The notes beneath the pieces were generated by a model. The model made no database searches and was not told the origin of the DNA. It saw only the letters and a list, made by a program, of their open reading frames with translations. DNA of 64,000 nucleotides, taken from the NCBI RefSeq assembly GCF_011927825.1, contig NZ_JAATJI010000001.1, forward strand, positions 1,426,001 through 1,490,000, read 5' to 3'. The position numbers were made by a program, and so were the translations under genes. Below are positions 16,400 through 40,458 of this stretch, one piece after another. How positions within the stretch are numbered: position 1 is the stretch's first letter; each line of letters starts with the position of its first letter. This DNA is from Polymorphobacter fuscus (lineage in GTDB: Bacteria; Pseudomonadota; Alphaproteobacteria; Sphingomonadales; Sphingomonadaceae).

Positions 16400-16414
16400 C
16401 TGTTGCTCCATATT

Positions 16415-16552
16415 CCCTCTCCCGCTTGCGGGAGAGGCGAGACGCGCGCCAGCGCGCCGGGTGAGGGTGTACCCACGCGCCGAAGACGAGGAAACACCCT
16501 CACCCGGGCCGCGCTTCGCGCGTCTCTCGCCTCTCCCGCAAGCGGGAGAGGG
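16415..16552. repeat. 138-bp inverted-repeat element between ppdK and glyS
   Basis: Two arms of about 56-59 bp (16415-16470 and 16494-16552) are near-identical reverse complements around a ~23-bp core. Each arm begins with the self-complementary unit CCTCTCCCGCTTGCGGGAGA, so the element could fold as one long hairpin or as two small ones. It encodes no protein. Related copies lie in glyS, before ychF and after purC. The copy provides GAGAGGG just upstream of the alternative ppdK ATG. Confidence 0.85.
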
Positions 16553-16577
16553 ATACTGATGCCATAACGGCGTCTAT

Positions 16578-18845
16578 TCACCCTTCGACCTTCGAAAAGT
16601 CCGCCACACTGTTCGCCGCCGCGCGCAACCGCGCGAGCAATCCCAACCGATTGGCCCGGATAGCAGGATCGGGTGCATTGACGATGACAGAATCGAAAAA
16701 CGCATCGACGGCCGGACGCAAGCCGGCGAGCGCCGCCATGGCAGCGGTGAAGTCCTCGCGGGCTACGGCGTCAGCGATGGCCGGGACGGCGGTGTCGAGC
16801 GCCGTGGCGAGGGCGGTTTCGGCGGGTTCGGCGAACAGCGCAGCGTCGGACTGCGGTGCGAACGCCTCCTCCTTGCCTTCCTCGATACGCAAAATGTTCG
16901 CCGCGCGCTTCACCCCGGCGAGCAGATTGGCCCCATCCTCGGTCGCCAACACCAACTGCAGCGCCCGCACCCGTGCGAGCGCAAGAACCAAATCGTCGAT
17001 GCCATTTGCGAGTACCGCATCAATCAAATCGTGCCGTACGCCCGCGTCACGCTGTTGAACTTTTAGTCGGTCGGCAAAGAAGGACAACAGACGTCCGTTT
17101 CTGACTGCTTTAGTGGCCACCAGTGCGACCGCTGGGGAAACCTCATCCGCTGGAGCACTGCCTACTTCCACCTTCGACAGGGTAACCAAGTCTGCGTGAA
17201 CCGCGCCGAAGCGTTCAAGCACAACATCCCAAAGCGGCAATCGAAGTTCATTCTTCACAACGATGGCGATGACACCAAGCGCTGCCCTGCGCAGCGCAAA
17301 AGGATCTCTAGATCCAGTCGGAAACTCGCCAACCTCGAAAAACTCGACCAACGTATCAAGCTTGTCCGCCAACGCCACCGCCACACTCACCGGTGCCGTC
17401 GGAACATCATCCCCCTGCCCGACCGGCTTGTAATGATCGCGGATGGCGTCGGCGACGCGCGCGTCCAGCCCCTGCGCCCGCGCCAGATAGGCCCCGGCGA
17501 TGCCCTGGACTTCGGGAAATTCCCCAACCGTCGCCGAGACGAGGTCGGCCTTGCACAGCCGTGCTGCCTGTTCGGCAAGGTCGGCCAGTTCCTCCCTCTC
17601 CCCTTGCGGGAGAGGGCGACTCGCCGAAGGCGAGCGGGGTGAGGGGTCGTCGCCCGCACCCCCCTCACCCGGCTCGGCTGCGCCGAGTCCGACCTCTCCC
17701 GCAAGGGGAGAGGTGATCGCGCCACTTTCCACCAGCCAGCGCGCCAGCTTCGCCACCCGCGCGACCTTGTCGGCCACCGTCCCCAGTTTCTCGTGAAAGA
17801 CGATGTCGCCCAGCCGGGGCAGGAAGGATTCCAGCTCCGCCTTCAAATCCTGGTCCCAGAAGAATTTCGCATCGGCCAGCCGCGCGCTCAGCACCCGCTC
17901 GTTGCCCGCCACGATCGCCGTGCCGCCGTCGGTCGCTTCCAGATTGGCAACGCAGACGAATGCCGGCGCCAGCACGCCGCCGGCATCCTCGCAGGCGAAA
18001 TATTTCTGGTTGGTCCGCATCGTCAGCTGGATGACTTCGGGCGGCACGGCGAGGAACGCCGCGTCGAACGCCCCCAGCATCGGCACCGGCCATTCGGTCA
18101 GCCCGGCATTTTCCGCCACCAGCCCGGCATCGGCGCGCACCACCAGCCCGCGCGCTGCCGCCACGGCCGCCGCGCCCGCCTCGATCACCGCCCGCCGCTC
18201 CGCCGATGCGACGATCACCTTGCCGTCGCGCAGCTGCGCCGCATAGCTGTCGGCACCCGCAATTTCGATCGGTTCCGGCGCATGGATCCGGTGGCCGCGC
18301 GTCACCCGCCCGCTGGTGACGCCATGGACCGCGCACGGCACCACTTCACCATCGAGCAGCGCCACGATCCCGGTCAAGGGCCGCACCCAGCGCGGGCTGC
18401 CCGCCACTGCCGATGCGGCCCCCCAGCGCATCGACTTCGGCCAGGCGAAATCGCGCACGATGGCCGGCACCAGTTCGGCCAGAATCGCCGCCGCCGGGCG
18501 GCCCTCGGTGCGGATATGCGCGAACAGCACCACGCCCTTGGGCGTCTGCCGCTCCTCGAGCTGGTCGCGGGTCAACCCGGTGGAGCGCAAGAACCCCGCG
18601 ATCGCCGCCTCGGGCGCACTCGCCGACGGCCCCTTGCGCTCCTCGCTCGCCGCCGCGCTGGCGTCGGCCACATCGCGCGCGATCAGCCACAGCCGCCGCG
18701 GCGTCACATCGGCAATAACGTCGCCGTGCGGAAGGCCTGCCGCCTTCAACCCGTCGACAAGGCGCGTGCGCAGCTGCTCGGCAGCGGCCGCCTGCATCCG
18801 CGCCGGGATTTCCTCGCTGGCGAGTTCGAGCAGGAAATCGCTCAT
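16578..18845 (-). CDS. glyS: glycyl-tRNA synthetase beta subunit with an inserted palindromic repeat
   Basis: A 755-residue subunit of the alpha2beta2 glycyl-tRNA synthetase, which recognises tRNA-Gly. The family N-terminus is [17 protein letters not shown], the core has YFACEDAGG and [20 protein letters not shown], and the C-terminal DALR-like anticodon domain has [15 protein letters not shown]. It is longer than the usual ~690-700 residues because about 40 low-complexity Gly/Pro/Ser/Glu residues (from about residue 378) are encoded by a palindromic repeat at 17594-17713. The ATG overlaps the glyQ stop (ATGA). The frame stays open through the insert, so the gene looks functional. Confidence 0.94.
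17594..17713. repeat. palindromic element inserted in frame inside glyS
   Basis: The arms 17594-17647 and about 17657-17713 are imperfect inverted copies. Each starts with a CTCTCCCCTTGCGGGAGAG-type palindrome, as in the intergenic element at 16415-16552. The length is 120 bp, an exact multiple of three. It encodes about 40 residues ([18 protein letters not shown]...PLPQGER) between two segments that look contiguous in other GlyS proteins (WLVESGA and [11 protein letters not shown]). This resembles Rickettsia palindromic elements in concept only. Confidence 0.85.
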
Positions 18846-19717
18846 GCCTGCGCCACCCACACGTCCGCGACGGCCTTCACCAGATCGCGCACCCGCCCGA
18901 TATAGGCCTGGCGCTCGGCGACCGAAATCACCCCGCGCGCGCCGAGCAAGTTGAAGATATGGCTCGCCTTGATCGCCTGGTCATAAGCCGGCAGCGGCAG
19001 CCCCGCCTCCACCAGCGCCCGGCATTCGTCCGACACATCCTTGAAATGCTGGAACAGCCGCTCGGTATTGGCATGCTCGAAATTATACGCCGAAAACTGC
19101 TGCTCCTGTTTCAGGAACACATCGCCATAGCTGACGCCGGCATCGTTGTACCTGAGGTCATAGACGCTCTCGACGCCCTGCACATACATCGCCAGCCGTT
19201 CGAGCCCATAGGTCAGCTCGCCCGCCACCGGCGCACATTCATGGCCGCCGACCTGCTGGAAATAGGTGAACTGCGTCACCTCCATGCCGTCGCACCAGAC
19301 TTCCCAGCCCAGCCCCCAGGCGCCAAGCGTCGGCGATTCCCAGTCGTCCTCGACAAAGCGGATATCGTGCACCCGCCGGTCGATGCCGATGGCGTCGAGC
19401 GACCCCAGATACAGGTCGATCAGGTCGTCCGGCGACGGCTTCAGGATCACCTGGAACTGGTAATAATGCTGCAGCCGGTTGGGGTTTTCGCCATAGCGCC
19501 CGTCGCTCGGCCGCCGGCACGGCTGCACAAAGGCGGCGTTCCAGCTGTCCGGCCCCAGCGCGCGCAGCGTCGTCGCCGGGTGGAAGGTGCCGGCGCCCAT
19601 TTCCAGGTCATAGGGTTGCAGGATGACGCAGCCGTTCGCGCCCCAATAATTCTGGAGCGTCAGGATGATGTTCTGGAACGACAGCGGCTTCAGCGGAACG
19701 GCCCTTCGCAGGTGCAA
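18842..19717 (-). CDS. glyQ: glycyl-tRNA synthetase alpha subunit
   Basis: The 291-residue catalytic class II subunit that forms glycyl-adenylate and charges tRNA-Gly with GlyS. Motifs include [56 protein letters not shown] and [17 protein letters not shown]. Family members usually begin a few residues before PLSFQ. No ATG or GTG fits there, so I placed the start at a TTG (19717) preceded by GCGGGG. An ATG at 19822 would add 35 atypical residues overlapping the cytochrome gene. It overlaps glyS by four bases. Confidence 0.9.
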
Positions 19718-22551: not shown

Positions 22552-22653
22552 CTTCTCCCCTCCCGGCACGGGAGGGGTCGGGGGTGGGTTTTCGGGGCGA
22601 ACGAAGCTGCCACTACCCACCCCCGACCCCTCCCGCAAGCGGGAGGGGAGAAG
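22552..22653. repeat. 102-bp inverted repeat between ychF and pth
   Basis: The arms 22552-22589 and 22615-22653 are nearly perfect reverse complements (CTTCTCCCCTCCCG... / ...CGGGAGGGGAGAAG). Each contains its own small CCCTCCCG...CGGGAGGG palindrome. A 25-bp AT-richer core separates them. It is related in design to the elements at 16415 and 17594. It lies within the likely pth-ychF transcript, so it may fold in mRNA. Confidence 0.82.
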
Positions 22654-32238: not shown

Positions 32239-32357
32239 AGAGCCTCCGGCGGGCAGGGCCGGCGGCCCTGCACCCGTCGATGGTGCCTCGATTTTCAGGA
32301 TTATGCGCTACCCGATGATCGGGTGCAGGGCGTAACGCCCTGCCCGCCGGAGGCTCT
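32239..32357. repeat. inverted repeat between the DUF6481-like gene and apt
   Basis: The outer arms AGAGCCTCCGGCGGGCAGGG(C) at 32239-32259 and their exact complement at 32337-32357 form a 21-bp perfect stem. Inside, GCCCTGCACCCG and CGGGTGCAGGGC form a second complementary pair around an AT-richer centre. The genes on both sides converge, so the folded RNA could serve as a bidirectional terminator. The nested design also resembles a small non-coding repeat element. The right end touches the apt stop codon. Confidence 0.75.
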
Positions 32358-40341: not shown

Positions 40342-40345
40342 CTCC

Positions 40346-40367
40346 CCTCTCCCGCTTGCGGGAGAGG
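40346..40367. repeat. palindromic repeat copy after purC
   Basis: CCTCTCCCGC and GCGGGAGAGG form a perfect 10-bp stem with a 2-base loop. It is the same unit that ends the element at 16415-16552, and the following GGGTGAGGGTGTGCGG also matches that arm. Only one arm is evident, so this looks like a half or decayed copy. Lying just past purC, it may slow or end transcription, but no U-tract follows. Confidence 0.7.
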
Positions 40368-40458
40368 TCGAGAGACGGCGAAGCCGGCCACGGGTGAGGG
40401 TGTGCGGCGCGTCGTGCGGGGCAAACCTCACCCGCAAACGCCCCTTCCCGAGTTCTCG

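Follow-up and report, generated by a model that had tools for sequence, protein, structure and literature searches.

The window, by which we mean the whole 64,000-nucleotide stretch of the Polymorphobacter fuscus genome analysed here, contains on its minus strand a glyS gene, whose product PF02092, TIGR00211 and PDB matches identify as the GlyRS beta subunit. Its closest counterparts, among the best 80 of 533 loci listed, are GlyS proteins of Polymorphobacter, Sandarakinorhabdus and MAGs. The genome comprises 3.36 Mb in 3 contigs and has a completeness score of 100%. Within glyS lies a palindromic element at a position that we call site 1, and this element, a second position (site 2) and two related elements in the window have the following coordinates.

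16578..18845, minus strand: glyS, GlyRS beta subunit, 755 aa with the ATG at 18845; the longest ORF starts from a GTG at 18860
17594..17713, minus strand: class A palindromic insert at site 1, 120 bp, in frame (aa 378-418); a nested inverted repeat, disordered in the model
17690..17713, minus strand: outer arm, 5' in the glyS mRNA (inverted-repeat search)
17595..17618, minus strand: outer arm, 3' in the glyS mRNA (inverted-repeat search)
17661..17689, minus strand: inner arm with GAGTC, a GANTC site (inverted-repeat search and sequence)
17618..17646, minus strand: inner arm with GACTC, a GANTC site (inverted-repeat search and sequence)
16833..16889, minus strand: site 2, the loop after KRAANIL, without a palindrome in the window; palindromes here in 24 of 80 relatives
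16414..16553, no strand assigned: related full element between glyS and ppdK, 72% identical (sequence match)
40343..40407, no strand assigned: related half unit, 83% identical (sequence match)

The palindromic element of the window

The initial annotation had described a 120-bp inverted repeat lying in frame within glyS at 17594..17713. The arms, codon shuffles and the open frame confirm this, and the coordinates were correct within one base. The outer arms are 24 nt long and 96% complementary, with a perfect part of 21 nt, and the inner arms are 29 nt long and 86% complementary. When the codons of the window glyS were shuffled 300 times, an arm of at least 15 nt arose in 7 shuffles and one of at least 18 nt in none, and the 21-nt perfect outer arms are therefore not a product of chance. 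The RNA fold of the insert has an energy of -99.7 kcal/mol (z -8.7). A comparison with Rfam gave no match at the gathering threshold anywhere in the window, and this rules out an Rfam RNA identity for the element. The GlyS frame (minus strand, 18845..16578) is free of stops across codons 378-418, which suggests that the insert is translated in vivo; the element is open in several frames.

The element is a member of a dispersed set. At E ≤0.001 there are at least 21 related places elsewhere in the 3.36-Mb genome, comprising full elements and half units, and this number is a lower bound, as 40 of the 60 first-look candidates were scored. They include the two listed above, whose kinship with the insert had been noticed near 16415 and 40346 and is borne out by their identities, a near-twin at C1:1121204 (85% identical) and 18 more. 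A search for other in-frame copies had also been suggested. There are 19 copies within long ORFs besides the glyS insert, and in none of the 10 that were checked with Pfam was there a clear in-frame insert inside a domain; 7 of these ORFs belong to no family and 3 have a domain downstream of the copy. A protein search with the insert peptide, with 102 candidates of similar length, returned GlyS only, in the form of 8 proteins that all carry the GlyRS beta domain. Mobilisation by a resident Y1_Tnp was rejected, since PF01797 (Y1_Tnp, RAYT) had no match in this genome, as compared with matches in 5 of 14 control genomes. Two more long inverted repeats, of other sequence, are present in the window at 22569-22635 and 32239-32357.

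A structural model of GlyS (mean pLDDT 87, from 57 sequences) matches solved GlyRS beta subunits, including E. coli 7yse. The insert is placed between helices 357-373 and 414-430, with pLDDT below 50 at aa 381-404. The E. coli residues that flank the corresponding gap, 378 and 386, fall inside the HD domain, which PMC8464048 gives as 341-540. As modelled, the insert is a disordered loop of the HD domain that lies between two helices.

Recurrent insertion in GlyS loops

To place the element in an evolutionary setting, we compared sphingomonad glyS loci, taking the best-scoring 80 of the 533 that were recovered with six peptide patterns; this is a non-random sample. A locus was scored as carrying an insert at site 1 if the loop between GIV and LADLAEQ exceeded 25 aa. 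By this measure an in-frame insert is present in 57 of the 80 loci and absent from 23. In insert-free relatives, among them the close relatives L031 and P0006, the loop has 15 residues, VESGAVKGDADLAEQ, and in the window it has 55, so that the net gain is 40 aa, as had been estimated. The size difference thus equals the element, the element is multicopy and close relatives lack it, and together these facts support the proposal that a repeat which can be read through was inserted here. Nor did taxa without such repeats carry an alignable insert of the same length: a flank search in other alphaproteobacteria gave a match in 115 of 142 genomes, and all 45 with both flanks among the matches listed are shorter here than the window by 111-126 nt. 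In a second sample of 30 glyS loci from one order, a palindrome occurs in glyS of 7 of the 8 genomes of the window's family and in none of the 22 genomes of other families, where the loops of L221 and L223 are without one. The insert-free species are scattered on the tree, and several (L065, L077, L088, L102) have in common the loop AEWLASEGIVPNCDPALARQ or close variants of it. Between L093 and L060, S. paucimobilis has no insert and its near sister has one, with no long recombination tract visible.

The inserts are not of one kind. Clustering of 58 of them (the 57 and the window's own) gave a class A of 20, to which the window element belongs, a class B of 19 and a class C of 13, followed by groups of 2, 1, 1, 1 and 1. 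By eye, L103 and L044 were assigned to class B, which brings it to 21; class D has 2 members, and L100 and L075 are unplaced, the insert of L075 fitting no class and showing no palindrome. Site 1 therefore holds at least four unrelated palindrome classes. Arms of at least 12 nt are present in 51 of the 58 inserts and absent from 7, as against 1 of 56 control pieces taken from the same genes. For 50 of 57 inserts the core has a match outside glyS in the 520 kb of sequence that these loci comprise (no match for 7), as against 0 of 56 controls. Genome-wide, a class C insert has 25-63 matches in carriers (five genomes) and a class B insert 8-70 (four genomes), a place matched on both strands being counted twice in these figures. 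Class B carries, by eye, the CGTC tag of published REPs before the stem. The inserts begin at an almost identical base across loci, and class C is read in all three forward frames, as SSPERGGGP, ILPGTGRG or PPRNGEGD. These results show that site 1 is a recurrent hotspot for several unrelated palindrome families across the Sphingomonadaceae, which goes beyond the single insertion envisaged in the initial annotation.

The same data bear on whether the segment could be an assembly artefact or could be removed from the mRNA or the protein. We found nothing in favour of this and consider it hardly credible, given the in-frame inserts in 57 separate genome records and a host genome that is complete by its score and assembled in so few contigs. 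All 58 inserts are open in the used frame, against 43 and 18 in the other two forward frames, which argues in the same direction, although weakly, because the used frame defined the gene.

In six species (L050, L063, L072, L074, L080 and L103) a piece resembling the 3' end of tRNA-Met, including its CCA, lies in frame just ahead of the palindrome, at nearly the same base. The palindrome that follows is of class B in five of these species and of class D in L080. Over 31 nt the pieces of L072 and L074 agree at every base with the tRNA-Met genes of three genomes, including that of L072 itself, and the tRNA-Met gene of the L074 genome differs from the L074 piece by one base. Those of L080 and L103 are diverged, and no tRNA match for the L063 piece was found in the L063 genome; judging from their resemblance, these three pieces may also derive from tRNA-Met.

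Insertion is not restricted to site 1, as the distribution of repeat matches across the loci makes clear: 56 are at this site, 28 elsewhere in GlyS and 72 outside GlyS, GlyQ and PpdK. Of the 28, 25 (in 24 loci) are at site 2, after KRAANIL and near the C-terminus. Of the other three, L079 has one in the NQKYF loop, L103 has one near the N-terminus, and the one in L083 is a misassigned site-1 insert. The NQKYF loop is a rarer third position for palindromes, seen in two species, L079 and L215. In Erythrobacter-type GlyS (L049, L059, L069, L090, L106 and others), site 2 is taken up by about 35 aa that are conserved and not palindromic, GEI.RTGEEDPL..VDDPD.

Five genes in all were compared for in-frame palindromes. 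Two methods found no repeats in 79 GlyQ genes (68 kb) or in 79 PpdK genes (205 kb), and pheT has none in the 7 readable genomes of the eight in the window's family. In valS, 4 of 7 readable genomes, again out of those eight (L208, L240, L241 and L242) carry in-frame palindromes of different families, and in the last three the palindrome is at one loop, PFATLGWP..HYPN. Outside the family, ordinary sequence in pheT of L162 contains an imperfect inverted repeat of 19 nt, which we attribute to chance.

A rival possibility is that site 1 is a sequence-specific DNA target, with the ATCGTC codons or some local structure being recognised by a transposase or integrase and survival within the protein being secondary. 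The nearly constant starting base of the inserts is in keeping with this, as is the nearly constant position of the tRNA-Met-like 3' end in six species, and tRNA 3'-end-like sequence is often used by integrases. Moreover, 15 of the 21 class B inserts come after host codons that end in CGTC, which is also the tag of the CGTC REPs. In the same count, which leaves out L083, CGTC nevertheless stands before just 5 of the 19 class A inserts and 1 of the 13 of class C, and 10 of the 23 insert-free loci have it as well; in the window itself the codon ahead of the insert is ATC, without CGTC. At site 2 CGTC is absent from all 24 loci, and no 6-mer, and hence no shared DNA motif, is common to the sequences upstream of the two sites. 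This uneven distribution among classes, the lack of CGTC at site 2 and the lack of a common 6-mer make a single DNA target unlikely, and the occupation of one site by at least four unrelated classes also speaks against it.

Turnover, rates of change and a hypervariable stretch

Class changes were counted on an 81-tip tree of GlyS from which the hotspot columns had been removed, with class, including "none", treated as a state. The tree requires 43 changes, compared with a mean of 46.2 when the classes were shuffled, and a value as low was reached in 23 of 200 shuffles. Presence or absence alone requires 17 changes. Within a well-supported group of five relatives, L054 has a class A insert and L043, L071, L092 and L096 have class C, and yet windows over the 300 codons ahead of the insert give 89-100% identity between L054 and L071. 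No recombination tract was seen around the insert when one was sought. Inspection by eye revealed composite inserts in L053 and L082, in which a class A-like left end of 9-12 nt stands before a palindrome of class B or D, and remnants consisting of a single hairpin or half an element in L047, L101, P0030 and P0034, of which the last two retain one hairpin. The palindromes appear to replace each other in place, and the remnants point to nested insertion followed by deletion as the probable route.

The alternative that one insert entered the sphingomonad ancestor and diverged past recognition, so that the classes would not represent separate events, seems to us very unlikely. The 17 changes would allow an early insertion followed by losses, and an old insert is also suggested by the tRNA-Met-like piece, whose position is nearly constant among scattered species. 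However, in other parts of the genomes the classes have their counterparts in separate repeat families, and relatives as close as L054 and L071 differ in class.

Synonymous change was slower in the insert than in its flanks in three sets of relatives that share an insert, with P values by pair from 4e-5 to 0.09. For L043 and L092 there were 0 changes in 36.7 sites in the insert and 45 in 204 in the flanks (P = 0.0004); the other pairs gave P = 4e-5 (L096 and L092), 0.03 (L081 and L110) and 0.09 (L090 and L094), the pairs within the class C set being non-independent. Class C elements from other places in these genomes provide a comparison, in the form of 9 orthologous pairs from 4 sets, irrespective of their location relative to genes. 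Six of the 9 pairs show 0-4.8% difference in the element and 3-15% in the 100 bp next to it, with one side nearly equal in one of them. With copies outside glyS slow as well in these pairs, the comparison suggests that the low rate is a property of the element rather than of the GlyS peptide. The other 3 pairs show 18-39% difference in the element, which exceeds that of the flanks; the non-glyS palindrome has diverged by 39% between L274 and L276, and by 18% between L264 and L265 on the one hand and L268 on the other, in each case far above the flanks. Because palindromes outside glyS can thus be more diverged than their own flanks, swapping is not confined to glyS, and replacement in place may be a general habit of such repeats.

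These rates are relevant to the idea that the insert is kept for a function, with an mRNA hairpin slowing or regulating the translation of glyS or a peptide tuning GlyRS. Slow synonymous change, the strong fold described above and the retention of some insert in most loci are all consistent with this idea, and the first also speaks against the insert being neutral for GlyRS activity, as we infer it to be. We nevertheless find a selected function rather improbable, because the insert is absent from 23 of the 80 loci, neither its peptide nor its frame is conserved, single-hairpin remnants persist and orthologous copies outside glyS are just as well conserved in the 6 pairs.

A different part of the protein, GlyS aa 527-588 (window 17082-17267), between RRAALGVI and FFADRLKV, is non-palindromic and is swapped wholesale between close relatives. 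In 49 parsed loci (of 81) it is 20-106 residues long, and in 48 of these it is poorer in GC than the gene. Among the 25 closest pairs of 50 parsed proteins (of 120), 21 pairs are 7-40% identical in this stretch with N-terminal parts at least 88% identical, and the other 4 are 70-99% identical in the stretch. A search with the window's version, among 153 candidates, matched only itself at E 0.001, and direct comparison revealed a similar version in L039. Some distant species (L092, L076 and L073; L061 and L085; L072 and L080) have similar versions, as if modules were exchanged. It is conceivable, and in our judgement doubtful, that the sphingomonad GlyS surface is under diversifying pressure and that the palindromes are surface variation co-opted in an arms race with a phage, toxin or inhibitor. 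The hypervariable stretch may matter more than the palindromes themselves.

Probably tolerant loops and known palindromic repeats

As a whole, we put at about 75% the probability that disordered loops of GlyS serve as tolerant landing pads for REP/RPE-like repeats, which are translated and whose peptide is not selected for. On this reading the window element would be a copy of a dispersed, non-autonomous, REP/MITE-like palindromic repeat that settled in a disordered surface loop of the HD domain and would be translated with GlyS, being neither removed nor needed. Two GlyS loops of the Sphingomonadaceae would tolerate about 10-60 extra residues, which would allow in-frame insertions to survive, and a loop that already holds a palindrome would offer a harmless target for the next. 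Unrelated families would then displace one another by insertion and partial deletion, with the older ones shrinking. Tolerance alone does not explain the concentration of palindromes in GlyS as against GlyQ, PpdK and PheT. The loci constitute a dense natural series in which one essential enzyme exists with and without some 10-60 residues from unrelated mobile palindromes at one position. With this series one can test whether new protein segments can arise from palindromic repeats, and by what means repeats that have no known transposase move and oust one another. For annotators it carries a warning that such low-complexity segments represent mobile DNA rather than protein families.

Several known systems resemble what we describe. 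Like the in-frame intragenic palindromic repeats of the RPE and REP kinds, the element is a dispersed multicopy inverted repeat, and an open frame runs through it in a conserved gene from whose orthologues it is absent. RPEs were described from Rickettsia and are spread over many genes. The comparison with Rickettsia palindromic elements that had been drawn for this insert holds as an analogy, a likeness of kind: both are palindromes in frame in a conserved gene. Here, unlike the RPEs, in-frame insertion is concentrated, among the genes examined, in a small number of glyS and valS loops. PMC2229807 and PMC10969869 give RPEs as palindromes of about 150 bp that lie in frame in conserved genes and are translated.

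The Caulobacter CIRs are likewise alphaproteobacterial repeats of about 110 bp with GANTC, which the window element has as GACTC and GAGTC. According to PMC2229807, however, CIRs are not found inside genes and have stops in all six frames, and membership was rejected, since the window element is intragenic and open in several frames. REPINs, the doublets of RAYT-associated REPs, also consist of two hairpin units in inverted order, and here too half units occur alone; the window element differs from them in that its genome has no Y1_Tnp (PF01797) and no GTAG tag was seen by eye.

The nearest precedent is the CGTC/GTAG REPs of Di Nocera, De Gregorio and Rocco (2013; PMC3733652), which are similarly short dispersed palindromes, often head-to-head dimers, found in frame in conserved genes. 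In that paper, the hosts include tRNA synthetases of E. litoralis and S. alaskensis, the CGTC families occur in alphaproteobacteria and lack a dedicated transposase, and the CGTC REPs are characterised by the CGTC tag, a stem of 8-9 bp, a loop of 4-5 nt and a CCA tail. Class B inserts fit this type by eye. Classes A (that of the window) and C do not, having no CGTC tag and longer arms, and by eye the window element does not show this set of features, so that its membership of the CGTC-tagged REPs was rejected. The paper also reports a shared insertion site for recB in two Xanthomonas species and different sites for other genes of that functional category. In contrast to the REPs described there, the inserts reported here involve one glyS codon position, several families and most of the loci examined, with replacement. 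Palindromes in glyS are not named in the titles and abstract openings that searches of open-licence literature returned, and Additional file 3 of PMC3733652, a list of host genes, may include glyS. In-frame REPs, including those in sphingomonad tRNA synthetases, were thus reported in 2013, and what is new here is a glyS hotspot that is occupied by multiple families and undergoes turnover.
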